A model generated the notes under the pieces. The model was not told the DNA's origin and searched no databases. It saw only the letters and a list, made by a program, of their open reading frames with translations. Positions 1,021 to 33,173 of a DNA stretch of 62,135 nt are shown piece by piece. Within the stretch, counting starts at the first letter, position 1, and the number at the start of each line of letters is the position of its first letter. The position numbers were made by a program, and so were the translations under genes. The DNA lies in the NCBI GenBank assembly GCA_913058495.1, contig CAJXQC010000019.1, positions 1 through 62,135 on the forward strand. The letters are read 5' to 3'. Source of the stretch: an uncultured Balneola sp. Lineage in GTDB: Bacteria > Bacteroidota > Rhodothermia > Balneolales > Balneolaceae.

Positions 1021-1031
1021 TTGCAGTATAA

Positions 1032-1080: not shown

Positions 1081-1253
1081 GAGAAACATTCATTAAACAA
1101 CTTCTAATAATGATTTTGGATTATTATCCGCCAAAAAATGTCGCATAACATTGAATCTCAAGATAGCAAAAGCATCAAATAAAACAAGCACTAAGAGCGA
1201 CCGTAAGATGGTAAGTCTTGCTTAGTTGGCCTTCTTTAAGAAAAGATAAAAAA

Positions 1254-2686: not shown

Positions 2687-4299
2687 TATCTAAAATCTAT
2701 TTTTACTTCTGAAGTAAATCCTCTCTGGATGTTAATGTTTTGCTGAATATAGTAAGGCTCAGGTTTTATATACGGATCAACTGAACCATAATCCCAAACA
2801 CCATTTTCGTTATTATCCTGGAATATGATCAACGTATACTTTATTGGAGGAATATTTTCAATTGATATGAAATTTGAAAAAGTAGAATCAACGGAAAAAG
2901 TATTCTTATCATCATAAAGTTGCATTCTGAACGCTTTGGTAGAATCTTTTGATGATACATCAATTTCGATCCCGCCAAAATTAACCGGATCCCAGATATC
3001 AGGATCTATAAGTTGTCTTTTTCTTTTGAGTGGATTCCAGACCAAAAACTTGTAATCTACTCCCTGTAACCAGTTCTCTTGTGGTGGAATGGTTAGTTTA
3101 TTGTCTTGAATACTGATATTCGGCCAATTCTTAAAGTCTACATCTCCTTCAATTACTACGGTGGAATCAACAACTTCCTGTTGCGAAATCGGGCGAATAA
3201 ATTCAACGATCAAGCTTTCATCGGGATAAAGACCGTTCTCGCCATTAAATGTTAAAATATCTTGGCTAACCGTGTCTTCCTGATCACTTCCTAAAAAACT
3301 TTCTCCCAAGCCTATTGCTTCATTTCCCGAAGGATCGGTTATTCCTGAAAAATTTAGTCTGTAACTTGAATTGGCAACTAACGGCTGCCTTGCATATGCA
3401 AAAGCTATAAAAGGTTCTTGCTCAGGAATATATAGAGGGAAAGCTGTTGTATACTCATTTCCTGATGAGTCTTCAATTGAAATACTTGTTTGTGGCGTAA
3501 ACCTTACTTCTTCTCCAAAACGAAATCTCATTCGCTGAGTTGAAAGTAAACCGATGGCCTGTAATTTCGGCTTTAACGTATCTACTTCAAACCAGTAAGC
3601 TACGTCCAAAGTATCTTTTCCATTGTCAGATAAATTGATGAATTCTGTATTCATGGGTCTTGCTGTTTCATTTGACCTGTCCCAGATCTTGTTTCTGTTT
3701 CGGTCGTCTAGAGCAAACGCTCTGTATCTTCCCTCCCGTAAATATCCAAATCTGAAAACCCCACCGGTATCCGGTTCCGAAGAATAATTAGCCGGCTTTG
3801 TTAAATCAAAAGGCTCTCTGTACAGCATCACCCTAATATCTGCCTGAGCTTTTCCGGTTTCCGCATTTCGTAACCTCCCAAGTATCTCACCCTTGTCAAT
3901 CTCATCCCCTGTTGAAACAGCTAATTGAATTGGAGCTCCAATTTTATTACTTCGAGTATCTGTAGTGTTTCCTCCAACAGTTATTATCACTGTTGTTGAA
4001 TCAGGGAGCTCACTTTTAAACTCAACCGTAGCTGTTTTTCTTCTCCATTTAACTTCGTATTCAATACCTAAATCGGGTTCTATTGTCAGCTCTTTCTCGA
4101 AAGAAGATCTATTAACAAACTCCGAAAACTCAAAACTGATCTTTCTTTCTTCAAAATTTACAGTGCCTGTTTCAGGAGAAGTTTCTTCGATCTTTGGCCC
4201 AGTTTTATCTGCCGGTCCACCAGTTGGGGCAATGGGCGTAGCACAGGAAAAAAATAATGTTACAACAAGTAACACGTTTATGTGATGTATCAATCTCAA
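2686..4299 (-). CDS. Ig-like domain (SbsA/Big_5 type) lipoprotein
   Basis: The protein is 537 residues with a lipoprotein signal (lipobox FSCAT at about residues 17-21). The N-terminal part of the mature protein has the Big_5/SbsA-type Ig opening typical of Bacteroidota: GPKIEETSPETGTVNFEERK, then the beta strands FEFSEFVNRSSFEKEL. A carboxypeptidase-regulatory-like stretch follows (GRLRNAETGKAQADIRVMLY, DDRNRNKIWD), and the C-terminal region has a similar DNNENGVWD motif. It is probably an outer-membrane-anchored structural or adhesive lipoprotein; the exact role is unknown. First gene of the operon with the MscS channel, and divergent from the gene at 4373. Confidence 0.8.
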   Translation of the reverse strand: MRLIHHINVLLVVTLFFSCATPIAPTGGPADKTGPKIEETSPETGTVNFEERKISFEFSEFVNRSSFEKELTIEPDLGIEYEVKWRRKTATVEFKSELPDSTTVIITVGGNTTDTRSNKIGAPIQLAVSTGDEIDKGEILGRLRNAETGKAQADIRVMLYREPFDLTKPANYSSEPDTGGVFRFGYLREGRYRAFALDDRNRNKIWDRSNETARPMNTEFINLSDNGKDTLDVAYWFEVDTLKPKLQAIGLLSTQRMRFRFGEEVRFTPQTSISIEDSSGNEYTTAFPLYIPEQEPFIAFAYARQPLVANSSYRLNFSGITDPSGNEAIGLGESFLGSDQEDTVSQDILTFNGENGLYPDESLIVEFIRPISQQEVVDSTVVIEGDVDFKNWPNISIQDNKLTIPPQENWLQGVDYKFLVWNPLKRKRQLIDPDIWDPVNFGGIEIDVSSKDSTKAFRMQLYDDKNTFSVDSTFSNFISIENIPPIKYTLIIFQDNNENGVWDYGSVDPYIKPEPYYIQQNINIQRGFTSEVKIDFR

Positions 4300-6466: not shown

Positions 6467-7870
6467 ATGCTAAAAAACTACCCCGCCATTTACACCGACT
6501 ATTATGAGCTTACAATGGCTCAAGGATATTTTTTATCCGGTCGTAAATCTGATACTGCCTGCTTTGATTATTTTTTCAGAAAACTCCCCTTTAAGGGTGG
6601 GTATGCTGTATTTGCCGGTTTGAGTGATCTGTTAGAAATCCTAAAAGATTATAAGTTTAGTGATACAGAAATAGATTATTTACGAACTCAGGGTTTTAAA
6701 AATGAGTTTTTAGATTATCTGAAAAAATTTGAGTTAACCTGTGATATTCATGCAGCCAAGGAAGGAGAAATTGTATTTAATAATACACCTCTAGTCAGAG
6801 TAGAAGGAAATATAATTGAAGCTCAAATTATTGAAACGCTCTTACTTAACATTCTGAATTTTGAATCTTTGATTGCTACAAAAGCTTCAAGACTAAGAGA
6901 AGTAGCCGGTGACAGAACTGTGCTTGATTTCGGGCTCAGACGTTCTCAGGGATTTGGAGGAGTACAAGCCAGCAAAGCTTCTGTAATTGGCGGACTAAAT
7001 GGAAGCTCTAATGTTTATGCGGGATTGGTGCATGGTTTGAACGTAAGTGGAACCATGGCTCATTCCTGGATTCAGTCTTTTCCCGATGAGCTCACAGCAT
7101 TCCGGGCTTATGCGAAGTACTTTCCTGAAAATACAATACTTCTTGTTGATACTTATGATACCCTGAATCAAGGTATCCCGAATGCTGTAACAGTAGCAAA
7201 AGAACTCAAAGAGTCTGGTCATTCGTTAAAAGCAATCCGCTTAGACAGTGGTGATCTTGCATATCTATCCAAGAAAGCCCGAGAACTATTAGACCATGAG
7301 GGATTTGAAGATGTCAAGATCGCGGTTTCTAACCAGTTAGATGAATATTTGATCAAAAGCTTGCTGGATCAGAAAGCCCCTATTGATATATTTGGAGTCG
7401 GTACAAAATTGGTGACCGCTTACGACGATCCTGCTTTGGATGGAGTTTATAAACTAGCATCCGTTAACGGCCAACCTACTTTAAAAATATCAGAGAATGT
7501 CGAAAAAATAACACTTCCCGGAACAAAGAAAGTGACCAGATATTCCAATCCCGATGGTTCTTTTTATGCAGATGGCATTTCTCTTAATGATGAAGATAAA
7601 TTTTCAGTAATAGAACATCCTCATTTTCCTATTAAACAAACCAAGGTTGATAACATGAACTCGTCTCCCCTACTGGAGCCGGTGATGTTAAAAGGGAAAT
7701 TGAAAATTGATATTCCGTCCGCCTATGAAAGTGCTGAGTATTGTAAAGACCAATTACTAAAACTAAATCCTGAGTACAAACGATTTGATAATCCTCATGT
7801 TTATAAAGTGGGAATTAGTCGCAAATTAAAAGCACTCAGGGATCAACTAATCCAAACTAATTCGAACTGA
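6467..7870 (+). CDS. pncB: Nicotinate phosphoribosyltransferase
   Basis: The protein is 467 residues. It converts nicotinate and PRPP to nicotinate mononucleotide, the committed step of the Preiss-Handler salvage route to NAD. Recognisable family features are the N-terminal YTDYYELTMAQGYF, FDYFFRKLPFKGGYAVFAG, LDFGLRRSQG and SGTMAHSWIQSF, where the His is the conserved phosphorylated residue, and GVGTKLVTAYDDPALDGVYKL. The length fits the longer PncB type of Gram-positives and Bacteroidota. It is followed one base later by pncA, so nicotinamide can be deamidated and salvaged in sequence. Confidence 0.95.
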   Translation: MLKNYPAIYTDYYELTMAQGYFLSGRKSDTACFDYFFRKLPFKGGYAVFAGLSDLLEILKDYKFSDTEIDYLRTQGFKNEFLDYLKKFELTCDIHAAKEGEIVFNNTPLVRVEGNIIEAQIIETLLLNILNFESLIATKASRLREVAGDRTVLDFGLRRSQGFGGVQASKASVIGGLNGSSNVYAGLVHGLNVSGTMAHSWIQSFPDELTAFRAYAKYFPENTILLVDTYDTLNQGIPNAVTVAKELKESGHSLKAIRLDSGDLAYLSKKARELLDHEGFEDVKIAVSNQLDEYLIKSLLDQKAPIDIFGVGTKLVTAYDDPALDGVYKLASVNGQPTLKISENVEKITLPGTKKVTRYSNPDGSFYADGISLNDEDKFSVIEHPHFPIKQTKVDNMNSSPLLEPVMLKGKLKIDIPSAYESAEYCKDQLLKLNPEYKRFDNPHVYKVGISRKLKALRDQLIQTNSN

Positions 7871-20078: not shown

Positions 20079-21035
20079 GTGAACGCAAACTTTACTACTC
20101 AGGAAGCACTCGATCATTGTATTACAGAAACAGCTGTTGAAGGATTACAATCCTACAAAGGAAAAGTCCGGGAGGTATACGATCTTGGATCAGATAAGCT
20201 TGGTATTGTTGTAACTGATCGTATCTCTGCTTTTGATTACATCATGAAGCAAGCCATTCCTTTTAAGGGACAGATCCTGAATCAAATGGCCGCCTTTTCA
20301 TTTGAGAAAGTTAAAGATATCGTTGCTACTCATATTATTGATGTACCTCATCCGAATGTAACGATCGCCAAAAAATGTGATCCGGTTCCTATTGAAGTTG
20401 TGATCCGTGGTTATTTAACCGGACATGCATGGAGAACTTACAAGTCAGGATTAAGGGAATTATGCGGTGCTCCGCTTCCCGAAGGATTGAAAGAACATGA
20501 TAAGTTTCCGGAACCTCTCCTCACCCCTGCTACCAAAGCAACGGAAGGTCACGACGAAGATATCTCAGAAGCTGATATTCTGAAACGCGAAATCGTCGAT
20601 GAAAAACTTTGGAATCAGATTCGAGAAACTGCTTTTAAACTTTTTGAGCGGGGAACTGAAGTTGCAGCCAAACAAGGATTGATCTTAGTGGATACTAAAT
20701 ACGAATTTGGTTTGTACAACGGTGAACTCACTTTGATCGATGAAGTTCATACAACAGATTCTTCCCGTTATTTTTATTCAGATGGATATGAAGAACGTCA
20801 GGCTAAAGGTGAGCCACAAAAACAGCTTTCCAAAGAATTCCTTCGGGAATGGTTGATGGAACATAACTTCCAAGGTTTAGACGGACAAACATTGCCCGAT
20901 CTCCCCGATTCCTTCCGAATGGAAGTGTATGAGCGCTATGCTGAATTATTCGGTTTGCTTACCGGAAAAGAATTTGAGCCTAAGTTGGAGAAAGATTTTG
21001 ATACGGAGTTGGGTGAGATTTTGAGTAAAACTTAA
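20079..21035 (+). CDS. purC: Phosphoribosylaminoimidazole-succinocarboxamide (SAICAR) synthase
   Basis: The protein is 318 residues from a GTG start. It joins aspartate to CAIR with ATP in purine synthesis. Family motifs: YKGKVREVYDLGSDKLGIVVTDRISAFD, VIRGYLTGHAWRTYKSG, LILVDTKYEFGL and the active-site segment LTLIDEVHTTDSSRYFY. The length matches the longer, yeast-like PurC type (about 306) rather than the 237-residue E. coli form. Its last five codons and stop lie inside a 61-bp sequence that is repeated on the far side of the neighbouring recombinase gene. Confidence 0.95.
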   Translation: MNANFTTQEALDHCITETAVEGLQSYKGKVREVYDLGSDKLGIVVTDRISAFDYIMKQAIPFKGQILNQMAAFSFEKVKDIVATHIIDVPHPNVTIAKKCDPVPIEVVIRGYLTGHAWRTYKSGLRELCGAPLPEGLKEHDKFPEPLLTPATKATEGHDEDISEADILKREIVDEKLWNQIRETAFKLFERGTEVAAKQGLILVDTKYEFGLYNGELTLIDEVHTTDSSRYFYSDGYEERQAKGEPQKQLSKEFLREWLMEHNFQGLDGQTLPDLPDSFRMEVYERYAELFGLLTGKEFEPKLEKDFDTELGEILSKT

Positions 21036-21081
21036 ACATTAAACCGGGATATGATGAACAAAATGCGTCATATTCTTATGT
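21021..21081 (+). repeat. Direct repeat / attI-like site, copy 1 (at the purC 3' end)
   Basis: It matches 22056-22116 at 57 of 61 positions. It contains the purC stop, an ATATGATG...GTCATAT inverted pair and ends CATATTCTTATG-T. After the end the sequence is CGAAGC, not a cassette start. Confidence 0.85.
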
Positions 21082-21134
21082 CGAAGCACTCTCCTGCGTT
21101 TCGGAAGAGTGATATTCTTTGATCCCTTGCTTAC

Positions 21135-21163
21135 CGGTCGGACGGCTCTAAGCCGTCTGACCG
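21135..21163. terminator. Strong hairpin between convergent purC and recombinase
   Basis: A 13-bp stem (CGGTCGGACGGCT with AGCCGTCTGACCG, one G-T wobble) closes a 3-base loop. It sits between two genes that converge and could stop transcription from both sides, though no T-tract follows on either side. It may instead be part of the mobile element. Confidence 0.5.
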
Positions 21164-21185
21164 ATGCTAGTTGAGTATTCGGAAT

Positions 21186-22028
21186 CTAAATATCTAAGTT
21201 CTCTATCGGACTTTTAACATCTTTCATGCTTCGTGAGCTTACATGTGTATAAATCTGAGTAGTAGAAATATGTTGATGCCCTAATAATTCCTGTATAAAA
21301 CGAATGTCGGTTCCGTTATCCAATAAATGTGTAGCGAAAGAATGACGCAATGTATGCGGCGTGGCTTTCTTTTTGATATTGGCTTTTTTTCTATGTCTCC
21401 TCATTAGTTGTTGAACAGAAGCGCTCGAATATTTCCCTCCATTCTGTCCTTCAAATAAATATTCTGACGGTTTGTACTCTTTCACATACTTTCTTAGTAG
21501 CTCTAAAACTTTTGGTGATAAAATAGAATACCTGTCCTTATTCCCTTTGGCTTGGTTGATACGAATTTGCATACGGTCTGAATCAATATCACTAATTTTG
21601 ATATTGAGGATCTCTCCTAAACGTAACCCTGCCGAATAACAAAGAGTAAAAATTGCTTTATGCTTCAAATTGGTAAATGTATTTAGAAATCTTTGTACTT
21701 CTTCCACTGACAGCACTTCTGGTATGGTAGAAGGTTTTTTCATTTTTATATTGAAATCGAAATCACTTTTTTCCAGAAGCACGTTTTCATATAAAAACTT
21801 AATTGAAGCAAGATGTTGCTTCATAGTAGAATAGCTGTAGCCTAAATTTTGCTTGCAATGGTAAAAGTAATTTTCCAATTCCTTTTCACCAACCTCTTTA
21901 AGCTTTTTGGCCTTTATATAACCAAGAAATAATTTTAATCCGTTCAAATAAGCATTTACTGTATTTGAACTATAATTTTTAAGAATAAGCTGATGTTTGT
22001 ACTTTGATAATAAATCTTTTGTATTCAT
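21186..22028 (-). CDS. Tyrosine recombinase of the integron-like element
   Basis: The protein is 280 residues. The core-binding domain is about residues 1-95, with the catalytic domain after it. Catalytic residues visible: Arg136 (AGLRLGEIL), Lys161 (AKGNKDR), His225 and Arg228 (HTLRHSFATHLL), His251 (LLGHQHIST) and the nucleophile Tyr260 (TQIYTHVS). The C-terminal VKSPIENLDI recalls the end of IntI proteins. The Lys-to-His distance is 64 residues, like XerD (72) and unlike IntI1 (106), so the IntI-specific insertion appears absent. It is divergent from the cassettes, with the attI-like site 28 bp upstream of its start: the classic intI position. Inferred to move the neighbouring cassettes. 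Confidence 0.88.
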   Translation of the reverse strand: MNTKDLLSKYKHQLILKNYSSNTVNAYLNGLKLFLGYIKAKKLKEVGEKELENYFYHCKQNLGYSYSTMKQHLASIKFLYENVLLEKSDFDFNIKMKKPSTIPEVLSVEEVQRFLNTFTNLKHKAIFTLCYSAGLRLGEILNIKISDIDSDRMQIRINQAKGNKDRYSILSPKVLELLRKYVKEYKPSEYLFEGQNGGKYSSASVQQLMRRHRKKANIKKKATPHTLRHSFATHLLDNGTDIRFIQELLGHQHISTTQIYTHVSSRSMKDVKSPIENLDI

Positions 22029-22055
22029 TATATTCTTTAAATTTAGTAGAATATG

Positions 22056-22116
22056 TTGAATAAAACTTAAACATCAAACTGGGATATGATGAACTAAATG
22101 CGTCATATTCTTATGT
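22056..22116 (+). other. attI-like site with first cassette joined (direct repeat copy 2)
   Basis: It is nearly identical to 21021-21081. The repeat ends exactly where the first cassette starts (CTTATG-TTGTACGC, crossover G at 22115). The right half, GTCATATTCTTATG-TT, resembles the right half of the cassette sites, TTCATATACAAGACCG-TT. By position it is the insertion point for new cassettes, and any cassette promoter is expected between here and the recombinase gene. Confidence 0.75.
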
Positions 22117-22267
22117 TGTACGCAAGCTGAAAAAAGAGCCAGCCGCACATTAGGCACATTTGGTTTTTGCCTAAACGCAAAGCCAACGCTGAAAATCCAA
22201 AAGAGCCTAATTTTGGCCAACGCTCGACCGAAATAGGAATATTAACCGAAAGGAATAAAGAACATAA
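22117..22267 (+). other. Leader of cassette 1
   Basis: This is 150 bp of non-coding DNA between the cassette start and mod. It contains CCAACGCT repeated at about 22192 and 22230; the same word returns just after res (26796). GAAAGGAATAAAG ahead of ATG 22268 supplies the ribosome site. Confidence 0.45.
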
Positions 22268-24223
22268 ATGAAACTGTACGAAGAATTAGAAAAACAGCTC
22301 AAAAACGAACCCAACTTTGTGAGCGACAATGGAGAACTGAAAAAGTGGGTGGTGATAAATAAAGCTCAAAACTTTGATAGCGAACTGATAGCACTACTAT
22401 TGGACAACCAAGAGCTGAAAGTGAAATTCTTTGTGGATGTGAAAGGCACATTGGTTTTTAACCAAAATCTTTTTGTGCAGTTTCTTGAACAGAAAAACTA
22501 CCTGAATGACAGCTACACTCAATACAAGAACAAGGTTGGACTAACCATTGGTGGCAAATACCTGAAACAACGCAACGAGGTAGCCTTAGTTTGGCCGTTT
22601 AAAGACTGCATACTGGAAGGCGGACAAAGCCGAGAAGAAGACAAGCGGGAAGAAATTTTCTTCAACGAAATACTAGCACAGGACGAGATAACCCAATTGC
22701 TTGAGCCCAAAGTACTGAGTAATTCCAAAGTCTTTGACAAAGACGGAGAACACGCCTTTAGTGGTTTAACCCGTGATGCTGAGCTGAACAAGAAAAGAGA
22801 CCTACCCGAAGACACTATTACCGACAACCTAATTATTAAAGGCAACAATCTTTTGGCTTTGCATTCACTAAAAAAGGAATTTGCAGGAAAGGTGAAGCTC
22901 ATTTATATAGATCCGCCATACAATACTGGCGGTGACTCCTTTCAATACAACGACCGTTTCAATGAGAGTTCTTGGCTTACTTTTATGAAGAATCGTTTAA
23001 TTGCAGCGAGAACTCTGTTGCAATCGCAAGGAGTAATTTTTGTGCAATGTGATGACCACGAACAAGCGTTGTTAAAAGTTTTATTGGATGAAACTTTTGG
23101 AGCAAAAAACTTTGTAGAAACCTTCATTTGGAAAAATACTGACAATGCTCCTGCTCTTTCCAAAAAAACTAGAAAAAACATAGAATTTATTCATTGCTAC
23201 GAAAAGGCATTGGACACGTCAGTTGGATACGTTGGGAGAGATAGCGATAACGATGATGCCCCATTATTGAATAGTGGTAATCCAATCACAACCTTAAAAT
23301 TTAAACCAGGAATCATCCAATTTAGGATTCATGATGGCAAATACAAAAAAGGTTCATTTGACAAAATCGAATTGCTTGATGATTTATTAGTTGAGAATGG
23401 TTTAAACAAGAATGAGGTAAGATTAAAAGGTCGCTTTAAGTGGCAACAGTCCTTTCTGAAAGACGAGGTTGATAAAGGAACCTATTTTTTGATTAAATCC
23501 AAGAAGTTTTCAATAAGGTATCAAAGAGAAGTGGCATCAAATATGGCTCCCGACAAGCTGATTGATGAAGTTTATCTTTCAAAATCTGTGGGCGTTGAAA
23601 CAAATGAAGATTCAAAAAAACATATTGATGCTCTTAAGTTAAAATTCAACTCATATCCTAAACCTGAATCACTTATTGCATTCCTAATCAAAGCTGTTAC
23701 CAAAGAAAACGATATTGTAATTGATTATCATCTAGGTAGTGGCACAACAGCATCTACCGCTCATAAAATGAATCGCCAATATATCGGGATAGAACAAATG
23801 GACTATATTGAAGATGTAGCTGTTGAGAGAATAAAAAAGGTCATTGATGGAGAGGCAGGCGGAATTTCAAAAGCGGTTGATTGGAAAGGCGGTGGTTCAT
23901 TCACCTATCTCGAACTCAAGAAATACAATCAAACTTTTATTGAACAGATTGAGGAAGCAAAAGACACCAAAGCACTTTTGGCAATTTGGGAACAAATGAA
24001 AGCCAAAAGCTTTTTGAACTATAATGTGGACATCAAAAAACAGGAAGAACACATTGAGGACTTCAATGCACTTAGCCTAAAGGAACAGAAACAACACCTT
24101 TGCGAATTACTGGACAAAAACCAGTTGTACGTAAACCTTTCCTCACTCAACGATAAAGACTTTGAATGCACGGATGAAGAAAAGCAAGTAACCCAAGACT
24201 TTTACCAAATAGAAAACAAGTAG
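22268..24223 (+). CDS. mod: Type III restriction-modification methyltransferase (Mod)
   Basis: The protein is 651 residues. It is a beta-class adenine-N6 methyltransferase: the catalytic motif DPPYNTGGDSF (motif IV, about residues 215-225) comes before the AdoMet motif VIDYHLGSGTTAS (motif I, about residue 490). The region between carries the target-recognition domain. An N-terminal helical segment and a C-terminal extension complete the usual Mod plan. It sets the recognition sequence for itself and for Res, encoded 4 bp downstream. Together they form cassette 1. Confidence 0.93.
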   Translation: MKLYEELEKQLKNEPNFVSDNGELKKWVVINKAQNFDSELIALLLDNQELKVKFFVDVKGTLVFNQNLFVQFLEQKNYLNDSYTQYKNKVGLTIGGKYLKQRNEVALVWPFKDCILEGGQSREEDKREEIFFNEILAQDEITQLLEPKVLSNSKVFDKDGEHAFSGLTRDAELNKKRDLPEDTITDNLIIKGNNLLALHSLKKEFAGKVKLIYIDPPYNTGGDSFQYNDRFNESSWLTFMKNRLIAARTLLQSQGVIFVQCDDHEQALLKVLLDETFGAKNFVETFIWKNTDNAPALSKKTRKNIEFIHCYEKALDTSVGYVGRDSDNDDAPLLNSGNPITTLKFKPGIIQFRIHDGKYKKGSFDKIELLDDLLVENGLNKNEVRLKGRFKWQQSFLKDEVDKGTYFLIKSKKFSIRYQREVASNMAPDKLIDEVYLSKSVGVETNEDSKKHIDALKLKFNSYPKPESLIAFLIKAVTKENDIVIDYHLGSGTTASTAHKMNRQYIGIEQMDYIEDVAVERIKKVIDGEAGGISKAVDWKGGGSFTYLELKKYNQTFIEQIEEAKDTKALLAIWEQMKAKSFLNYNVDIKKQEEHIEDFNALSLKEQKQHLCELLDKNQLYVNLSSLNDKDFECTDEEKQVTQDFYQIENK

Positions 24224-24227
24224 CACT

Positions 24228-26792
24228 ATGGCATATTTATACAATACCATCGTGCAGGAATTTGGCAAACGTGAACTTGCACGCACCGCAGTACCCAACA
24301 CCATATTAGATAATCTGCGCCCAGGTTACGGTCAGCGACCTTATCAGATTGAGGCGTTCCAACGTTTTATACTTTGCTACAACGAAGATTTTGAGGGCAA
24401 GCCACACAAACCATTTCATCTGCTTTACAATATGGCAACAGGAAGTGGTAAGACCTTGATAATGGCAGGCTTGATGCTTTACCTCTATGAAAATGGGTAT
24501 CGTAATTTTCTGTTTTTTGTGAACAGCAACAACATTATCAAGAAAACCAAAGACAATTTCCTGAATCCACAAGCCAGTAAATACCTATTCAACAAAAAAC
24601 TGGTGGTTGACGGCAGAGAGGTACTTATCAAAGAAGTTGAAAACTTTGAAGAAGCTGACACGGAAAACATTAACATCAAGTTCACCACCATTCAGCAACT
24701 GCATATTGACCTGAACAATACCAAAGAGAATAGCATCACCATTGAGGATTTTAAGGACAAGAAAATTGTTTTGATTGCAGATGAAGCTCATCACCTTAGT
24801 TCAGCAACCCGAAACAACGGAGATTTATTTGGTAGTTGGGAGGGCACAGTAATGGAAGTACTGAAAGCTAACTTTGACAATATCCTTTTGGAGTTTACCG
24901 CAACATTGGATTATGAAAGTCGGGAGATTGCCGAAAAATATCAGGACAAGGTCATTCACAAATACGACTTGGCTCAATTTCGTTTGGACAAGTATTCGAA
25001 AGAAATCAATCTGGTTCGGTCGCTCTACGAAGAACAGGAACGAGTTATTCAGGCCTTGATTCTCAATTTGTATCGTCAGGAACTGGCAACATCCAACAAC
25101 ATCAATCTAAAGCCTGTAATTCTGTTCAAAGCCAAACGCACTATTGCGGAATCTGAGCAGAACAAAACAAACTTTCACCAACTCATTGAGGAATTTTCGG
25201 CAGAAATGGTGAACAACATTCAGCAAACTTCTACTGTACCAATTGTTCAAAAGGCATTTCAATTTTTTGAAGGCAAAGGCATTTCGAGTACCGAAATAGC
25301 CAAACGAATCAAAGTCAACTTTAAGGAAGAAAACTGCATCAGTGCCAACAATGACGCAGAAGCAGAAACCAATCAGATTTTACTAAACACATTGGAAGAT
25401 GAGAACAATCCAATCCGTGCCGTTTTTGCCGTTCAGAAATTGAACGAAGGTTGGGATGTTTTGAACTTGTTCGATATTGTACGTTTATACGAAGGACAAA
25501 ATACAGGTGGAAGTAATCGAGGTATTGGGAATACCACAATTTCGGAAGCCCAATTGATTGGTAGAGGTGCAAGATACTTCCCTTTCAAACTGGAAGAAGG
25601 TCAAGACCCTTTTACTCGAAAGTTTGATGATGACGTTTCCAACGACTTAAAAATCCTTGAAGAACTGTATTATCACACCAAAGAAGACAGCCGATACATT
25701 TCCGAATTGAAACAGGCATTGATAGATACAGGTATTTATGAAGATGATGAAAATTCTGTCCAGCTTTCCTTGTTCCTAAAACCTGAATTTAAGGAAACAG
25801 ACTTTTACAAAACTGGTCAGGTGGTTTTCAACAAAAAGGTTGAAAAGAGTTACGACAATGTAAAGTCATTCGCTGATTTAGGCGTAAAGAAAAAGAACTT
25901 CAGTTATACTCTTTCATCTGGAGTTGGACGTATGACTGGCGTATTCACCAAGGAAGAAGAAAACGGTGATACAGGCAAGATTGACCAAAAAGACATTTCG
26001 GTAAAGGACATTCCAAAACACATCATTCGCTTTGCCTTATCGCAAAATCCATTTTACTACTTCGACAGTTTGGAGAGATATTTCCCGAATGTTGAATCCT
26101 TATCAAATTTCGTAGAAAGTGAAGATTATCTAAGTGGTTTGGAAATAACTTTTAACGGAACGAAAAGCCGTTTGGAAAATATCAACCATCAAGATTATTT
26201 ATTTGCCATCAATGGTCTTCTTGACACAATTGAAATGGAGATAAAGTCGAACCTGACCGAGTACGAAGGTTCGAACTACGTTAAAGATTACGTCCACAAA
26301 GTTTTCAAAGACAAAGTGATTAAGGTGTACAAAGACAGTGAGCGAGCAGACGGACAATTAGATGTGGTGAGTGAACCTGAATGGTACGTTTACAGCGCTA
26401 ATTATGGAACAAGTGAAGAGAAGGAATTTGTAAAAATGTTCGCCAGACGTTTTGAGCATTTAGAGAAAAAGTACACCAATATCTATCTGATACGAAATGA
26501 AAGGGAATTGAAAATATTTGACAAGTTGGGTCGTGCTTTTGAGCCTGATTTCATTCTCTTCTGCAAACAAAAAGACGAAGAAGAACTGACCTATCAGGTT
26601 TTTATTGAGCCAAAAGGTGCTCATCTGGTTGCAAACGACAAATGGAAAGAAGACTTCTTGAAAGAGATTAGAGAAGAAAAGAAAACCATCAAGATTGACA
26701 CGGACAAATACTTGATTACAGGAGTACCATTCTACAACAATGCGAACGAGAATGAATTTAAGGACACATTAGAAACAACATTGAATGAATAA
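24228..26792 (+). CDS. res: Type III restriction endonuclease subunit (Res)
   Basis: The protein is 854 residues. It is a superfamily 2 helicase with Walker A MATGSGKTLIMAG (about residues 68-80), Walker B/DEAH ADEAHH (about 186) and motif VI-like IGRGARYFPF (about 445). A C-terminal nuclease of PD-(D/E)XK type is suggested by FEPDFILF...YQVFIEPKGAH near residue 780. It translocates or switches on DNA and cuts near unmethylated sites found by Mod. It looks intact, so the cassette probably carries a working restriction system. Confidence 0.92.
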   Translation: MAYLYNTIVQEFGKRELARTAVPNTILDNLRPGYGQRPYQIEAFQRFILCYNEDFEGKPHKPFHLLYNMATGSGKTLIMAGLMLYLYENGYRNFLFFVNSNNIIKKTKDNFLNPQASKYLFNKKLVVDGREVLIKEVENFEEADTENINIKFTTIQQLHIDLNNTKENSITIEDFKDKKIVLIADEAHHLSSATRNNGDLFGSWEGTVMEVLKANFDNILLEFTATLDYESREIAEKYQDKVIHKYDLAQFRLDKYSKEINLVRSLYEEQERVIQALILNLYRQELATSNNINLKPVILFKAKRTIAESEQNKTNFHQLIEEFSAEMVNNIQQTSTVPIVQKAFQFFEGKGISSTEIAKRIKVNFKEENCISANNDAEAETNQILLNTLEDENNPIRAVFAVQKLNEGWDVLNLFDIVRLYEGQNTGGSNRGIGNTTISEAQLIGRGARYFPFKLEEGQDPFTRKFDDDVSNDLKILEELYYHTKEDSRYISELKQALIDTGIYEDDENSVQLSLFLKPEFKETDFYKTGQVVFNKKVEKSYDNVKSFADLGVKKKNFSYTLSSGVGRMTGVFTKEEENGDTGKIDQKDISVKDIPKHIIRFALSQNPFYYFDSLERYFPNVESLSNFVESEDYLSGLEITFNGTKSRLENINHQDYLFAINGLLDTIEMEIKSNLTEYEGSNYVKDYVHKVFKDKVIKVYKDSERADGQLDVVSEPEWYVYSANYGTSEEKEFVKMFARRFEHLEKKYTNIYLIRNERELKIFDKLGRAFEPDFILFCKQKDEEELTYQVFIEPKGAHLVANDKWKEDFLKEIREEKKTIKIDTDKYLITGVPFYNNANENEFKDTLETTLNE

Positions 26793-26895
26793 GCCAACGC
26801 TAAAGTCATACACATTTGCAAGCCGCACAATGCCAAGCTCAAACCCAAGCTTGCAAAAGAGTATGCCTTTGCAGACCCGAAAAAAAGAAAAGCCA
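26793..26895 (+). other. 3' tail of cassette 1
   Basis: This is non-coding DNA between res and the attC-like site. It holds a perfect inverted repeat, TTTGCAAGC ... GCTTGCAAA (about 26816-26859), which may act as an mRNA end or be an outer part of the recombination hairpin. Confidence 0.4.
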
Positions 26896-26959
26896 GCGTA
26901 CAACAACACCTATACGCAATGCCCTTCGGGACACTGCGCATAGCCAAACCGTTAACTGC
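26896..26959 (+). repeat. attC-like site B (end of cassette 1 / start of cassette 2)
   Basis: This is a 64-bp imperfect palindrome: GCGTACAAC-AACACCTATACGC ... GCGCATAGCCAAACC-GTTAACTGC, with a TTCG loop at the tip. The left core is complementary to the start of cassette 1; the right core starts cassette 2. Confidence 0.82.
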
Positions 26960-26976
26960 AATTGTGAAAGACGTCC

Positions 26977-27575
26977 GTGACTGAAAGTCAAAAAAATAGA
27001 ATAAAAAAGAAGATAGCTAATATTAAAAAGGCTTTAGCTGCTGATAAAAAACATTGGGGTGGATTTTATCACGATGGCGGCGGACTGAGATATGCACAAC
27101 CTGAATTGTATATAAAATTGCATGATTACACTGGAGCTCTAAGATACTTTAATTGGTTCGATAAGAATTTCCCAAACGATGCCGGAACCCCACAATTCCT
27201 TTTTGAATATGCCTTGATTCTATTTAAAACCAATAGAATTGAGAAAGCAGAAATTAAAATCCTAGAAACACATATGAGTAATCAGTATTTAATTGATTAT
27301 TTTTTGAACAGAATTTCCATTCCCGATATTAATGATCAATCTGAGTGGGAAATAAAATCATTGGTGCGGTATTTTGATTATAAAAAGAAGATCATAAACT
27401 GATTGATTTTTCCGAATGGCTTGCGGATTTTACGAAAAGCAAGAGATATCTAATCTTTCGAAATGAATTAAATGAAATTGATCAAAAATTAGACACGAAA
27501 CCCGAAAGTAGAAAAAGAACTGAATTGATAAAGAAACGTAATCAACTCCTCGAGAAAGAAAACAACAGCAGTTAA
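26977..27575 (+). pseudogene. Hypothetical cassette gene with a frameshift
   Basis: The first frame runs from GTG 26977 to TGA 27402 (141 residues: MTESQKNRIKKKIANIKKAL ... YFDYKKKIIN). A second open frame, 27384-27575, has no start codon but coding character (HKLIDFSEWLADFTKSKRYLIFRNELNEID...) and overlaps the end of the first. A one-base change in the A run around 27382-27386 would join them into one protein of about 200 residues. The second frame's stop lies in the R'' core of the next site, as expected for the true gene end. Function not recognised; the N-terminal half is helical and basic. Confidence 0.65.
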
Positions 27576-27766
27576 CAACGTGTATAAGTAATACGGGTGA
27601 TCTAGTTCAATCGAAAGTTTCGGTATATTTGGGAAGACCGCCAAATCTTCTGATTTGGCTTTTGAACAAAAAAAATAAAAAGAAAAACAGTAGATTTGGC
27701 TAGTGCTGGCTTGAAAATTATAGAAACTTCCCTCCCGCACTACTCATACACAAACCGTTACCACAC
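27568..27766 (+). repeat. attC-like site C (end of cassette 2 / start of cassette 3)
   Basis: This is about 199 bp. The outer arms GTTAACAACGTGTATAAGTAATACGGG and, opposite, CCCGCACTACTCATACACAAACC-GTTAC pair closely. The centre (about 27624-27701) includes CGCCAAATC..GATTTGGC and is related to the centre of site D. Confidence 0.82.
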
Positions 27767-27793
27767 ATTAAAAACAAACACCAGAACTAACAA

Positions 27794-29554
27794 ATGTCAT
27801 ACGAAACAGCCTTAAAAATTTCGGATGTTGTAAATAACATTCACAAGAAAAAATACTTACTTCCAGCAATCCAAAGAGAATTTGTTTGGAACACTTACCA
27901 AATCGAAAGACTGTTTGACAGTATAATGCGAAATTATCCAATTAGTTCATTCCTATTTTGGCAAGTCGATAAAGAAAGCGTGAAAGATTTCGAGTTTTAC
28001 GAATTTCTACGTGAATTTCACGAAAGAGATAGAAGACATAACTCGAAAGCAGATGTGAGCGGAGAAGAAGGAATTACCGCAATTTTAGACGGACAACAAA
28101 GGTTGACTTCAATCTATATTGCTTTAAAAGGTAGTTTTGCGGAAAAATTACCACGCAAAAGATGGGATAATGATTTAGCTTATCCCAAGAAAAAACTCTA
28201 TTTGAATTTAGTTAACAAATCAGAAGATTCTGAACTTGAATATGACTTCATCTTTTTGACAGACGAAGAAGCAACAGAAAATGACGAAAATAGTTATTGG
28301 TTTAGAGTTGGCGACATTCTAAATTTAAAAGAACCAGGAGAAGTAAATTCATATCTGATTAAGAATAAAATTTTTCAAGAATATACGACTGAACAAGCTG
28401 AATTTGCAAACAATGCTTTATTCAAACTTCATAATGTAATCCACATAACACCTTTAATAAGCTACTATAAAGAACAAAGTCAATCATTGGACAAAGTGCT
28501 TAATATCTTCATTAGAATTAATAGTGGTGGAACTGTTTTAAGTTATTCAGACCTTTTACTTTCAATTGCAACAGCTCAATGGGAAGAAAAAGATGCGAGA
28601 GAAGAAATTATCAAATTCGTTGATGAAGTAAATGACATTGGTGGCGGATTTAATTTCAATAAAGATTTTGTATTAAAATCAAGTCTTGTAATAAACGAAT
28701 TTTCAGATTTTGCATTTAAAGTAGATAATTTCAACAAAGCCAATATGTTGAAAATCGAGCGAAATTGGGATGCAATTACAAATTCTATTAGAATAGCTGT
28801 AAAACTTGTATCAAGTTTTGGTTACAACAGAGAAACATTGACTTCTAACAATGCTATCATTCCAATTGCTTACTATTTATTCAAAATTGGAGCAACAGAA
28901 AGTTATCCAACTTCAACCAAAAATTTAGTCGACAAAGAGAGAATTAGAAAATGGTTAATTCTTTCACTTGTAAAAAGAGCGTTTAGTGGTCAACCTGATA
29001 ATGTATTGAGACCAATAAGAAAGATAATACTTGAAAACCACGAGAGTTTCCCAACGGAATTAATAATCGACAAATTTAAAGGAACAACTAAATCATTATT
29101 GTTCTCGACTGAAGATATTGAAAACTTATTGCATTACAAATACGGACAAGGATTTACATTTTCAATCTTGTCATTACTTTATCCTCAATTAGATTATAAC
29201 AATCAGTTTCATATCGACCACATTTTTCCAAAAAGTCTATTTACAAAAGCCAAATTAAGAAAGCGTGGAATTTCGGAAGAGGATATTGAAACATTTTATG
29301 ATTGGTTCAACTATATTGGGAATTTACAGTTAATTGGAGCAATCCCGAATATTGAAAAAAAGGATATAGAATTTAAAACGTGGCTGAACAAAATTTATCC
29401 AGACCAAAGAAATCAAGACAATTTTAAAGAAGTTCATTACATTCCAAATACGGAATTGGACTTCGAGAATTTTATCGAATTCTTTGAGGAAAGAGAAAAA
29501 TTATTAAAAGCGGAATTTGAAAAAATTCTGTTAATAGAAGAAACAGCGGAATAA
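27794..29554 (+). CDS. DUF262/DUF1524 protein (GmrSD-like type IV restriction or defence nuclease)
   Basis: The protein is 586 residues. The N-terminal DUF262 (ParB-like NTPase) has LPAIQREFVWNTYQIERLFDSI (about residues 18-40) and ILDGQQRLTSIYIAL (about residues 96-110). The C-terminal DUF1524 region has an HNH-type motif FHIDHIFPKSLF (about residue 475) and a later NLQLIGAIPN. GmrS and GmrD joined in this order restrict modified phage DNA. Many relatives are defence proteins of unknown target, so the role is inferred. It is the only gene of cassette 3. Confidence 0.85.
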   Translation: MSYETALKISDVVNNIHKKKYLLPAIQREFVWNTYQIERLFDSIMRNYPISSFLFWQVDKESVKDFEFYEFLREFHERDRRHNSKADVSGEEGITAILDGQQRLTSIYIALKGSFAEKLPRKRWDNDLAYPKKKLYLNLVNKSEDSELEYDFIFLTDEEATENDENSYWFRVGDILNLKEPGEVNSYLIKNKIFQEYTTEQAEFANNALFKLHNVIHITPLISYYKEQSQSLDKVLNIFIRINSGGTVLSYSDLLLSIATAQWEEKDAREEIIKFVDEVNDIGGGFNFNKDFVLKSSLVINEFSDFAFKVDNFNKANMLKIERNWDAITNSIRIAVKLVSSFGYNRETLTSNNAIIPIAYYLFKIGATESYPTSTKNLVDKERIRKWLILSLVKRAFSGQPDNVLRPIRKIILENHESFPTELIIDKFKGTTKSLLFSTEDIENLLHYKYGQGFTFSILSLLYPQLDYNNQFHIDHIFPKSLFTKAKLRKRGISEEDIETFYDWFNYIGNLQLIGAIPNIEKKDIEFKTWLNKIYPDQRNQDNFKEVHYIPNTELDFENFIEFFEEREKLLKAEFEKILLIEETAE

Positions 29555-29559
29555 ATAAC

Positions 29560-29761
29560 GTGTGGTAACAACGTATATAAAACATAGCTATTACAGGCTT
29601 TCCGAAAGGTTTGTGTGTATTTGCAAAGACCGCCAAATTTTTAAATTTGGCTTTTAGTAAAATAAAGATAAAAAGAAAATTTAAAAATTCGGCTCGTGCA
29701 TAATCCGAAAGGTTAGCATCTTTTTACACGCTACGTTTCATATACAAGACCGTTGTAGCGA
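29560..29761 (+). repeat. attC-like site D (end of cassette 3 / start of cassette 4)
   Basis: This is about 202 bp. The outer arms are GTGTGGTAAC-AACGTATATAAAAC and ACGTTTCATATACAAGACC-GTTGTAGCGA. The centre (about 29615-29694), with CGCCAAATT..AATTTGGC, is related to site C, showing common descent of the two long sites. Confidence 0.82.
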
Positions 29762-29799
29762 ATTAAAGTAACTCTCAATTATTTTAAAACAATAGAGAA

Positions 29800-31536
29800 A
29801 TGTCCAAAAATGTATCTGACCATTTAGTGGAAACACTTGCCGCAGCAGGTGTCAAAAGAATTTATGCCATTACAGGTGACAGTCTCAATCCGGTAAATGA
29901 TGCGGTACGAAGAGATGGTAGACTCCAATGGATACATGTCAGGCACGAGGAAGCAGGAGCTTATGCGGCTTCTATGGATGCAGAATTGAATGGCATCGGA
30001 TGTTGTATGGGGAGCAGTGGTCCAGGACATGTACACCTCGTTAATGGCTTGTATGATGCTAATAGAGCTGGAAATCCCGTTATTGCAATTGCTTCGACTA
30101 TACATACAGACAAACTAGGGCTGGATAATTTTCAGGAAACAAGACCCGAAGCACTGTTTCAAGATTGTTCAAAATATGTGTTTTTGGCTAATACACCAAA
30201 ACAGGCATTGAATGGCTTGCAAACTGCCATTCAGCATGCTATCAGTCAAAAAGGTGTTGCTGTATTAGGCCTGCCCGGTAATGTAGCTGCTGCCGGAGCA
30301 GACCCTGTTCACTCTGCCAATAAAAATTTCTATACTCAACCAAGAGTTATCCCGAGCAACGAAGATCTTAATGAAGTAGCCGATATAATAAACAAGCATG
30401 AAAAAGTGATGCTCTTTTGTGGGCATGGTTGTCGCCATTCTGTTGATGAAGTTATGCAGCTAGCAGAAAGACTCAATGCGCCATTAGGTTATAGTTTTAG
30501 AGGGAAAATATTTTTTGAACGCGTTCACAATCCCTATGCTGTTGGATTAAACGGACTTTTGGGTAATAAATCTGGTTTTGAAGCCATGCATAAAGCAGAT
30601 GTGCTTCTTATGCTGGGTACAGATTTCCCTTATAGTGAGTTTCTACCTGAGAAATGCAAAATCATTCAAATAGATACTAAACCTGAAAAGTTGGGTCGAA
30701 GAGCCAAGGTAGATTATGGATATTGTGGTGATATTAATTCAACCTTGCAAGAGCTTTTACCTTTTATTGAAGAAAAAAACTCTACCGAATTCCTTGATAA
30801 AATGCGTGAATTGCATAAAGAAATTGAGAACACTTATGAAAGCTATGTCAAAGATAAAGGCTCAGAAAAGCAGATTCACCCGGAGTATGTCGCTCATTTG
30901 GTAGATAAATTAGCAGATGACGATGCAATATTTACTGTTGATACGGGAATGAGCGCGGTATGGGCTGCGCGCTACCTAAAAGCTAGTAAAAATCGCTACC
31001 TCACAGGTTCGTTCAATCATGGATCTATGGCTAATGCCATGCCGATGGCAATGGGTGCAGGATTATCGCATCCTGACCGACAGGTAATTGCATTTTGCGG
31101 AGATGGCGGTATTTCCATGCTCTTAGGCGATTTGATGACCATTAGCCAGTATCAAATTCCGGTTAAAATCATCATTTTTAATAATCGTGCGCTTGGCATG
31201 GTGAAACTTGAAATGCGTGTAGAGGGTTATATAGATTGGCAGACCGATATGGTAAACCCTGATTTTGTAAAGTTGGCTGAGTCTATGAATATTGCCGCAT
31301 GGGAGGCCAAGGAATCCATAGATGTAGAATCAGCACTTACAAACGGATTTAAACATAAAGGCCCTGCCATTATCAACATTTTCACAGACCCTAATGCGCT
31401 GGCAATGCCTCCTTCCCTAACCTTCGAACAAATGAAAGGTTTTGCAAAATCCATGTCAAAAATGATAATGAATGGTAAAATTGCAGAAGTAGTAGATACG
31501 ACCAAAAACGATCTAAAATACTTAAGAGAATTATAA
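29800..31536 (+). CDS. Thiamine-pyrophosphate enzyme, pyruvate oxidase/decarboxylase (PoxB-like) family
   Basis: The protein is 578 residues, of full three-domain plan. The N-terminal pyrimidine-binding domain has HVRHEEAGAYAASMDAELNGIG, where the Glu is the conserved activator. The central domain is about residues 190-330. The C-terminal diphosphate-binding domain has GDGGISMLLGDLMT...IIIFNNRALG (the GDG-N motif for Mg-TPP). It resembles pyruvate dehydrogenase (quinone) PoxB, but no C-terminal membrane-binding peptide is obvious. It acts on a 2-oxo acid; the electron acceptor is uncertain. It is six bases ahead of the flavoprotein gene, within cassette 4. Confidence 0.85.
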   Translation: MSKNVSDHLVETLAAAGVKRIYAITGDSLNPVNDAVRRDGRLQWIHVRHEEAGAYAASMDAELNGIGCCMGSSGPGHVHLVNGLYDANRAGNPVIAIASTIHTDKLGLDNFQETRPEALFQDCSKYVFLANTPKQALNGLQTAIQHAISQKGVAVLGLPGNVAAAGADPVHSANKNFYTQPRVIPSNEDLNEVADIINKHEKVMLFCGHGCRHSVDEVMQLAERLNAPLGYSFRGKIFFERVHNPYAVGLNGLLGNKSGFEAMHKADVLLMLGTDFPYSEFLPEKCKIIQIDTKPEKLGRRAKVDYGYCGDINSTLQELLPFIEEKNSTEFLDKMRELHKEIENTYESYVKDKGSEKQIHPEYVAHLVDKLADDDAIFTVDTGMSAVWAARYLKASKNRYLTGSFNHGSMANAMPMAMGAGLSHPDRQVIAFCGDGGISMLLGDLMTISQYQIPVKIIIFNNRALGMVKLEMRVEGYIDWQTDMVNPDFVKLAESMNIAAWEAKESIDVESALTNGFKHKGPAIINIFTDPNALAMPPSLTFEQMKGFAKSMSKMIMNGKIAEVVDTTKNDLKYLREL

Positions 31537-31542
31537 TCTATT

Positions 31543-33015
31543 ATGAGAGAAGCACTTAAATTTAGCTTAGTGGCATTGATTATTTTTGGAATAATCATCG
31601 GTATTATTTTATGGCCATTGCCAGGATTTATCGTTTTGGCTGCCCTATTAATATCCATTGGCTTATATGATATTTTTCAAAAAAAGCACACCATTCTCAG
31701 AAACTTTCCTGTAGTTGGCCACATGCGTTTCTTATTGGAAATGATTGGTCCTGAATTACATCAATATTTTGTAGAATCAGGCACAGATGGAAAGCCTATC
31801 GATCGAAATCATCGAAGTTATATCTATGAACGGGCCAAAGAAGAGAGGCAAACGCATCCGTTTGGCACAGAGCTCAACGTTAATGTTGATGATCATAAAT
31901 GGATGCAGCATAGTATCTACCCTGCCAAGAAAATGGAAACTCCTCCTCGAATTATGATTGGAGGTATAGATTGCCGACAACCTTACAGTGCATCTATATT
32001 CAATATTTCAGCGATGAGTTTTGGAGCTTTGAGTAAAAATGCAGTAGAAGCATTGAATTTGGGTGCTAAAGCCGGAGGCTTCTTTCATGATACTGGCGAA
32101 GGGGGTATTTCAAAGTACCATTTGAAAGGTGGTGATTTAGTATGGGAAATAGGCACAGGCTACTTTGGCTGCCGAAGTGAGGATGGCGACTTTGATCCGG
32201 ACAAGTTTAAAGAAAAAGCCAACTGGGAGCAAGTGAAGATGATCGAAATCAAAATTTCACAAGGAGCAAAACCAGGGCATGGTGGTGTCTTGCCAGCAGC
32301 TAAAAATGATCAGGAAATTGCTGAAATAAGAGGAGTGAAGCCTCATACAACAGTGCTATCTCCTCCTGGTCATTCCGCTTTCGATGATGCTGACGGATTA
32401 TTGCAATTCGTTCAACAATTGAGAGAATTGTCCAACGGAAAACCTGTAGGCTTTAAACTTGCCATAGGAAGTAAGCAAGAGTTTATTGAAATATGTAAGA
32501 AAATGCTCGAAACAGGTATCAAACCGGATTTCATCACTGTAGATGGTGCGGAAGGAGGTACAGGGGCTGCTCCCATTGATTTCTCAAACTATGTAGGTAT
32601 GCCTTGGGAAGATGCATTGATTTTTGTGGTAGATACTCTCAACAAATACAACCTGAAGCAAGAAATCAAAGTTATCACAGCTACCAAGATTTTTACGGCT
32701 TTTGACATATTCAAATCACTTTGCATCGGTGCGGATGTATGCAATTCAGCACGCGGCATGATGTTGGCCTTGGGCTGCATACAAGCACTAAAGTGCAACA
32801 CCAACGAATGCCCTACTGGTGTAGCTACAAATAATCCAAAATTTGTAAGAGGTCTGGTAGTCTCTGAAAAATGGAAAAGAGTGAAGAATTACCACAAAAA
32901 TATATTAGAAGACTTTTTGGAATTATTAGCAGCCTCAGGCTGTAAGTCGCTGGAGGAAATGAAACGAAGTTTAATTTACAGAAAGGTTGATAAGAAATGG
33001 GTTTCCTACTCTTAG
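31543..33015 (+). CDS. FMN-binding glutamate synthase-family protein
   Basis: The protein is 490 residues. Two N-terminal transmembrane segments lie at about residues 7-45 (LVALIIFGIIIGIILWPLPGFIVLAALLISIG). A GltB-like TIM-barrel domain follows, with ISAMSFGALSKNAVEALNLGAK, GEGGISKYH, KPGHGGVLPAAKN, TVDGAEGGTGAAP and a Cys cluster (CNSARGMMLALGCIQALKCNTNECPTG) for an iron-sulfur centre. It lacks the glutaminase domain, so it is not a full glutamate synthase. Paired with the TPP enzyme, it could pass electrons from an oxidised 2-oxo acid to the membrane; inferred. Confidence 0.85.
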   Translation: MREALKFSLVALIIFGIIIGIILWPLPGFIVLAALLISIGLYDIFQKKHTILRNFPVVGHMRFLLEMIGPELHQYFVESGTDGKPIDRNHRSYIYERAKEERQTHPFGTELNVNVDDHKWMQHSIYPAKKMETPPRIMIGGIDCRQPYSASIFNISAMSFGALSKNAVEALNLGAKAGGFFHDTGEGGISKYHLKGGDLVWEIGTGYFGCRSEDGDFDPDKFKEKANWEQVKMIEIKISQGAKPGHGGVLPAAKNDQEIAEIRGVKPHTTVLSPPGHSAFDDADGLLQFVQQLRELSNGKPVGFKLAIGSKQEFIEICKKMLETGIKPDFITVDGAEGGTGAAPIDFSNYVGMPWEDALIFVVDTLNKYNLKQEIKVITATKIFTAFDIFKSLCIGADVCNSARGMMLALGCIQALKCNTNECPTGVATNNPKFVRGLVVSEKWKRVKNYHKNILEDFLELLAASGCKSLEEMKRSLIYRKVDKKWVSYS

Positions 33016-33101
33016 AGAAATAAAACGATACATAATTGAGGATATTATGGATTATAATCGAGCGTATTATCAAATGAATTAAAAAATAGATAAATAAAAA
33101 C

Positions 33102-33173
33102 TCGCTACAACAATGTATATGAAATCATAGCACCCTTCGGGATCTACGCTTCATATACTAGACGTTGTATGTC
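33102..33173 (+). repeat. attC-like site E (end of cassette 4, last site)
   Basis: This is a 72-bp palindrome: TCGCTACAAC-AATGTATATGAAATCATAGCACCC, a TTCG loop, then GATCTACGCTTCATATACTAGAC-GTTGTATGTC. The left core closes cassette 4. The right core GTTGTATGTC has no complementary partner downstream that I can find, so the array appears to end here. Confidence 0.82.

Follow-up and report, generated by a model that had tools for sequence, protein, structure and literature searches.

The locus and its cassette array

In the window, by which we mean the whole 62,135-nucleotide stretch analysed here from an uncultured marine Balneola sp., a tyrosine recombinase gene lies between the host gene purC and an attI site, beyond which four gene cassettes follow (22116-33164). 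The features are as follows.

20079-21035, plus strand: purC (SAICAR synthetase, SAICAR_synt), host gene of the left flank, present in 8/8 genus genomes
21018-21081, unstranded: additional attI-like copy, 3′ of the recombinase and immediately following purC, 92% identical to 22053-22116
21186-22028, minus strand: tyrosine recombinase, read here as an integron integrase without I2 (280 aa; AlphaFold2 model, pLDDT 85)
22053-22117, unstranded: attI, between the integrase start and the array, from family-locus comparison (inferred crossover G22115^TT)
22116-26951, plus strand: cassette 1, type III restriction-modification (mod 22268-24223, res 24228-26792; family matches)
26896-26959, unstranded: attC1 (R″-R′), short type; 96-98% identical copies in L028, L037 and L039, arrays of three other genomes
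26952-27757, plus strand: cassette 2, 141-aa ORF (26977-27402), with R″/R′ pair
27568-27765, unstranded: attC2 (arm scan 13.3; R1 model 50.3 bits)
27758-29752, plus strand: cassette 3, GmrSD-like protein (27794-29554; PADLOC HEC-05, 773.7 bits)
29561-29760, unstranded: attC3 (arm scan 13.2; R1 model 58.1 bits)
29753-33164, plus strand: cassette 4, TPP enzyme (29800-31536) and glutamate-synthase-like protein (31543-33015), from Pfam
33103-33172, unstranded: attC4, final site of the array (R1 model 34.7 bits at 33109-33166)

The anatomy of the array can be read directly from the letters. Each cassette starts with GTT plus six letters that reappear as reverse complement in its own R″ box (4/4); insertion of a circular cassette carrying a single attC leaves such pairs. 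The start of cassette 1, GTTGTACGC (22115), matches R″ GCGTACAAC (26896-26904) in this way; that of cassette 2, GTTAACTGC (26951), pairs with GCAGTTAAC (27568-27576); that of cassette 3, GTTACCACA (27757), with TGTGGTAAC (29561-29569); and that of cassette 4, GTTGTAGCG (29752), with CGCTACAAC (33103-33111), each member of this last pair occurring once in the window. The tandem cassettes and attC sites with R″/R′ complementarity that define an integron platform are present. The long imperfect palindromes that the initial annotation had likened to attC are real, and lie outside the recombinase gene itself (21186-22028). Compared with shuffled sequence, the attC1-3 regions fold more stably (z -2.2 to -4.8), and attC1 was missed by both the arm scan and the R1 covariance model described below. 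Rfam returned only two chance matches for the window array, far under gathering scores, and nothing but a tRNA, a TPP riboswitch and DUF805 for eight array loci. Family searches gave no match for the 141-aa ORF of cassette 2, and the TPP enzyme of cassette 4 was found in one of the eight genus genomes, namely the host. Host synteny resumes at the end of the array in two of four related genomes (G002 at 33163, G001 at 33174), and the alignment resumes later in G004 (34715) and G005 (34717).

In 11/14 loci of the family that includes Balneola and Gracilimonas, a site resembling attI can be recognised 5′ of the recombinase; of the remaining three, L038 and L039 have a different site in common with each other and L036 is truncated. 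Similarity among the family loci stops at AAC (GTT on the opposite strand) and the sequence beyond is variable, except in L027, L030 and L034, where the same 128-bp element stands right beyond the AAC/GTT. A shared putative attI with differing downstream sequence is the pattern of an attI with different first cassettes, and by this comparison an attI beside the integrase gene with insertion at GTT, the other mark of an integron platform, appears to be present as well. The recombinase is matched in a Balneola MAG, at 100% identity by the scan and at 99.6% by a comparison of our own, and G005, of the same genus, has a recombinase near-identical to that of the window with a different first cassette. 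Folding of attI and of 22117-22250 was no better than that of shuffles. A near-perfect palindrome of ~128 bp recurs across arrays, directly after attI in three, and is apparently a gene-less cassette (in array coordinates, L027 87-214 and 2212-2339; L032 ~2090, 4010 and 6284; L030 and L034 near 85).

The left flank varies among genomes. The extra attI-like copy is missing in L027, the 3′ end of purC adjoins the 3′ end of the recombinase in G005, and the purC-attI junction also occurs in G001, a genome with no recombinase match at 1e-50. We considered the 1035-bp unit between the two attI copies as a self-mobile integrase cassette and set the idea aside, because loss or duplication explains the G001 junction equally well. 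The ~100 bases between the extra attI copy and the recombinase stop (21082-21185) contain two apparent hairpins. At the same locus in G001 (L288, reversed, ~1013-3600), attI after purC is followed by at least one attC-like site, apparently an integrase-less array. Elsewhere in the host genome, two more attI-like copies (L026, G000:C21, 3518-3589 and 4675-4718) each precede an apparent short remnant of the recombinase N-terminus; they look like integrons in decay, with small ORFs and an aquaporin-like gene as neighbours.

The recombinase

The protein consists of a SAM-like N-terminal domain and a Phage_integrase domain. Arg136, Lys161, His225, Arg228, His251 and Tyr260, named as catalytic by the initial annotation, are all present and align with the catalytic residues in all 137 aligned recombinases. 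The catalytic Lys and His are 64 residues apart, and 64-65 apart in the relatives (88/88), versus 106 in the 31 IntI proteins measured, which include IntI1 (L275) and the host's own IntI (IntI4, the 32nd IntI row, was omitted as its row is without the relevant stretch). In 17 Xer proteins the spacing is 66-75, with 72 in E. coli XerD and 71-75 in the XerC/D among them. Alignment thus returned the three figures proposed at the outset (64, 106 for IntI1 and 72 for XerD), and the I2 insertion, which in IntI lies between these two residues, was not found, as had been claimed. The description of the spacing as XerD-like holds only roughly: all of the 17 Xer proteins have a longer loop.

That the enzyme is in essence a XerD-like recombinase did not stand. 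It scores far under the cut-offs for XerD (202.8 vs 329.6 bits) and XerC (199.3 vs 335.15 bits) and groups with IntI, with Xer as the outgroup. It is also below the cut-off of the IntI model TIGR02249 (214.5 vs 265 bits). The sole curated NCBIfam cut-off passed is that of NF040815 (recomb_XerA_Arch; 237.3 bits, cut-off 220), just under which lies the relative L038 (215.8 bits). Structure speaks against XerD-likeness too, as an integron integrase heads the matches among solved structures, tied with archaeal XerA. The AlphaFold2 model built on 60 aligned relatives has a mean pLDDT of 85, with residues 252-266, including Tyr260, below 50; it superseded a poor model from 14 rows (pLDDT 72). Its best match is the Vibrio integron integrase 2a3v (Z 23.0, rmsd 3.7, 260 residues), with which XerA 4a8e (Z 22.6) is tied, followed by 5hxy (21.7), and Foldseek places XerA 5hxy first and 2a3v second.

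Near the position of the IntI insertion, residues 192-201 form a lineage-specific loop, F-E-G-Q-x-G-G-x-Y-S. Within it E193 (84/88), G194 (85/88) and Y200 (86/88) are kept among the relatives, and none of the three is the usual residue at its position in IntI or Xer. The loop F192-E193-G194-Q195...Y200 is a candidate substitute for the missing I2 grip, although contact with DNA is a guess. A shorter relative of the recombinase recurs on Acinetobacter plasmids (52% identity over residues 53-280; TnpF in one annotation), and contigs assigned to viruses carry relatives of 30-51% identity (L120-L199, IMG/VR).

The attC sites and a proposed choice of strand

We propose that the recombinase is an integron integrase acting on attI and attC, that it belongs to an IntI-related lineage without I2, and that the folded bottom strand of attC is its likeliest substrate; judged from sequence, we consider this reading about 80% probable. 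We infer that the enzyme is catalytically active and would use the attI immediately 5′ of the integrase gene together with the attC of each cassette, with a predicted crossover at G^TT by which cassettes would be inserted beside attI and excised from the array. The substrate would most likely be the bottom strand of attC, folded as a single strand. G-T wobbles at nearly fixed places of the stem may stand in for extrahelical bases, on which I2 gives IntI its grip; the wobbles become A-C mismatches in the folded top strand and probably mark strand and orientation. A point against any integrase of this kind comes from passages of an eLife 2020 paper (PMC7790495) reporting I2 as necessary for cassette capture.

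The sites beside the I2-less integrases form a class of their own. IntI-type attC sites have unpaired bases at fixed places, 41 on the left arm vs 6 on the right (23 distinct sites), matching the extrahelical bases expected from passages of the literature (PMC2727003). The I2-less class has 42 vs 28 with no fixed place (71 distinct sites), and does not have the extrahelical bases on one stem arm that characterise IntI-type attC. Its mismatches have a polarity instead: in the 71 distinct sites, 109 are G-T on the bottom strand (A-C on the top) and 22 the reverse, the set being 95 of 130 sites, from 19 loci chosen as real arrays. Counted by unit, this is 52 vs 9 sites, with 10 ties, and 17 vs 2 loci, and in IntI sites the count is 11 vs 11. 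Over all 104 distinct candidate sites the figures are 133 and 50; the 34 distinct sites of the loci left out have no polarity (26 vs 28), which fits chance hits. Exceptions among the loci, again as G-T vs reverse, are L085 (3 vs 8), L039 (0 vs 1), L098 (4 vs 3) and L104 (4 vs 3). The sites were first selected by arm complementarity, which inflates pairing but not polarity. The bottom strand is the more stable one on folding in 49/71 distinct sites and the top strand in 20/71, and the inner stem window of the 71 has an A/G mismatch, corresponding to a G-T pair on the bottom strand, in 55 and G/A in four.

It is possible, though unlikely, that the enzyme is an integron integrase that recombines double-stranded attC through the classical two-strand Xer pathway, with the palindromes serving as paired half-sites. 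The missing I2 would agree with such a pathway, as would the short inverted repeat inside the attI-like site and the canonical double-strand activity that passages of one paper report to be retained in integron integrases (PMC4792948); polarity, too, could in principle mark duplex half-sites. Covariation within the stems argues otherwise. In 14 aligned sites, hand-picked out of 23 of length 119-128 nt, the bottom-strand covariation score is 0.556 vs 0.150 shuffled and a slid maximum of 0.143. The stem letters vary while complementarity is kept, both sides having changed in 15/21 pairs, and 94.9% of cells pair on the bottom strand vs 84.4% on the top. One pair (22-114) is G-T in 14/14 sites and another in nine; the nine sites outside the alignment also have the A/G mismatch (23/23). 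In the inner stem, which was not used in selection, within-site complementarity is 6.48 vs 4.11 (permuted maximum 4.88; 33 distinct sites), and the same test failed for IntI sites (4.56 vs 4.17; 9 distinct). A substrate consisting of one folded strand would be expected to show stem letters that vary freely but stay complementary, along with a fixed wobble; in a duplex site this pattern would have no obvious meaning. The initial annotation had left two options, another way of recognising hairpins or the use of double-stranded sites; the first is favoured by stem covariation and by a non-Watson-Crick pair that is conserved and has a fixed polarity between the strands.

Some approaches to the sites were abandoned. 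A within- versus between-site test of the arms was dropped as circular, because the sites had been selected by arm complementarity. A first arm scan without the R″/R′ rule was too unspecific, with 15 matches at score 9 in 8 kb vs 9, 9 and 10 in shuffled sequence; at score 12 the counts per ~97 kb were 40 matches upstream, 7 downstream and 10 in shuffled sequence. An initial chain rule was also rejected (29 pairs upstream, 50 downstream, 9 shuffled).

Kinship, spread and known systems

A tree of 65 proteins, hand-picked from 137, with Xer as the outgroup groups the I2-less family with IntI against Xer (support 100/98). IntI is monophyletic in this tree (100/100), with the recombinase outside, and the monophyly of the I2-less family has a support of 47/88; in a larger quick tree of 137 proteins the family is paraphyletic. 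Assuming the Xer outgroup, these two outcomes make the I2-less family either the sister of IntI or a grade out of which IntI arose. A phylogeny against IntI and Xer had been suggested by the initial annotation, for which a place within IntI would have been damaging; the recombinase lies outside the IntI clade, as sister or paraphyletic. Rows with stops (L064, L077, L088, L099, and the IntI L269 and L271) and one truncated row (L036) were dropped, and 32 of 53 IntI rows were retained. A distant outgroup of own-genome integrases and viral matches sat on branches 3.8-5.4 changes per column long and the bootstrap did not settle, so that tree was not used.

It is improbable that the recombinase is a derived IntI that has lost I2. 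The two have in common the integron architecture and a C-terminal SP motif, present in 54/88 of the I2-less family, 31/32 IntI and 0/17 Xer, but the monophyly of IntI leaves the I2-less family outside, and the outgroup Xer is without I2 as well. The root of the IntI/I2-less tree depends on this Xer outgroup, the tree with the distant one being unreliable. The proposed I2-less lineage related to IntI invites a broader and more tentative claim, which we hold at slightly less than even odds: that there are integrons without I2 and the first ones probably had none, that their single-stranded attC hairpins are read through a conserved G-T wobble in place of extrahelical bases, and that IntI descends from relatives of this multi-phylum lineage. 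On this view the IntI branch would have gained I2 and extrahelical bases later, the one coupled to the other.

The host also carries a true IntI (435.9 bits). At E<=1e-80, IntI is found in 48/89 family genomes, and it is present in 86/296 phylum genomes; the frequency of canonical IntI in family and phylum exceeds what passages of older surveys lead one to expect. The recombinase is found at E<=1e-50 in 12/92 family genomes (14 loci), and 10 of these 12, the host included, also have an IntI match, so that action in trans is possible there. One could therefore imagine that the canonical IntI encoded in these genomes moves the cassettes, with the I2-less recombinase a bystander, and passages of one paper describe IntI1 as accepting diverse attC sites (PMC8618304). 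We regard this as a shade less probable still than the loss of I2 from a true IntI, since the sites follow the recombinase. The IntI arrays of the family use a different attC class, with another bulge pattern, and the R1 covariance model of the I2-less class, built from 14 sites, has 0 matches at E<=0.1 in 153,667 bases of 11 IntI loci. Across 89 genomes, R1 matches occur in 11/12 genomes with the recombinase vs 12/77 without (p=4e-7), or 8/9 vs 12/77 when the three genomes that supplied model sequences are removed (p=2e-5), and they are not associated with IntI (13/48 vs 10/41 genomes). At E<=0.01 the model finds sites in 10/13 family loci, three of which supplied model sequences, and none in L028, L030 and L034. 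G032, which has no IntI match at 1e-80, yields 15 R1 model matches and, in one scan, a run of 6 consecutive sites.

The pairing of I2-less recombinase and array extends beyond the family. A scan of a species-genome collection gave at least 80 loci with recombinase relatives; L040-L042, duplicates of family loci, were removed, leaving 77 distant relatives among the matches listed. At least two R″/R′ site pairs lie on one side of the recombinase in 13/77 of these, vs 0-2/77 in five shuffled sets, and at least three pairs in 9/77, vs 0 in the five sets. Examples are a Chitinophagaceae MAG (11 pairs), a Cytophagales MAG, Portibacter and Maribacter. The array is on the 3′ side of the recombinase in 10/13, and all of the 13 except L054 are named as Bacteroidota (12/13); the I2-less relatives themselves occur in several phyla, and the arrays known here come almost entirely from Bacteroidota. 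Arrays of at least two pairs were not detected in the other 64/77 listed relatives, which may have truncated contigs, may have escaped a weak detector, or may not be integron integrases. As the R″/R′ detector is weak, with pairs verified in 7/13 family arrays, missing arrays elsewhere say little. The distant array genomes also bear on movement in trans: in 11 of the 12 searched whole (mostly drafts; that of L115 was left out) there is no IntI above cut-off, and one is positive. Weaker IntI matches in these genomes mostly cover the first 180 profile positions, as the I2-less family does. In Maribacter (L070), a second IntI-like frame, broken or divergent, lies between the recombinase and its array (6809-7599), in a genome where no IntI match reaches 1e-30.

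An ordinary housekeeping recombinase of XerA, XerC or XerD type, beside the array by chance, is very improbable: the NF040815 (XerA) cut-off is passed (237.3 vs 220 bits), but the genome has its own XerD (357.7 bits) and an XerC-like gene elsewhere, and the recombinase is patchy (12/92 genomes at 1e-50) and array-associated.

Neither integrons run by I2-less integrases nor a wobble-marked attC class turned up in the open PMC literature, which leaves preprints and most subscription papers outside. The consulted passages of several papers treat I2 as the mark of an integron integrase: one states that I2 is in no other protein and that intermediates are lacking (PMC7790495), one survey picked integrases by their I2 domain (PMC2426708), and for IntegronFinder 2 the extra domain makes IntI easily told from other integrases (PMC9024848). 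Recognition of IntI by this domain (PMC2426708, PMC9024848) probably misses the I2-less class by design; the same IntegronFinder 2 passages name a single complete integron within Bacteroidetes, in Salinibacter (PMC9024848). The I2-less pairings may be informative about the origin of integrons and about what escapes present search tools. Should the enzyme be active, IntI would have a living I2-less relative that makes the origin of single-strand recombination directly testable and represents a second code for strand choice, and cassettes, which here include restriction and GmrSD defence genes, would be mobile in more bacteria than have been counted.

Among known systems, XerC and XerD resemble the recombinase in fold, catalytic residues and the lack of I2, and differ in their Lys-His spacing of 71-75 and in model cut-offs that it falls far below. 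For XerA, through NF040815 ('site-specific tyrosine recombinase/integron integrase'), the cut-off is passed, and the simple two-domain build without I2 is the same; association with attI and attC arrays and the loop residues E193, G194 and Y200 set the recombinase apart from it. The kinship of I2-less enzymes with IntI was partly foreseen, as passages of Smyshlyaev et al. 2021 (PMC8138268) describe an 'integron-like' subgroup of tyrosine recombinases in which the insertion is not fully conserved. The same passages call the insertion essential for integron function and, unlike the account given here, make no mention of attI, attC arrays or integrons for the I2-less members (PMC8138268). With IntI (TIGR02249; VchIntIA/IntI4 2a3v, IntI1) the recombinase shares catalytic residues, fold, an attI beside its gene, the C-terminal SP motif and attC cassette arrays with R″/R′ complementarity, the GTT triplet and an unequal spacer by the R boxes. 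Unlike IntI, it has no I2 (Lys-His 64-65 vs 106) and stays below the TIGR02249 cut-off, and in place of the bulges of IntI attC its sites carry G-T wobbles at nearly fixed places.
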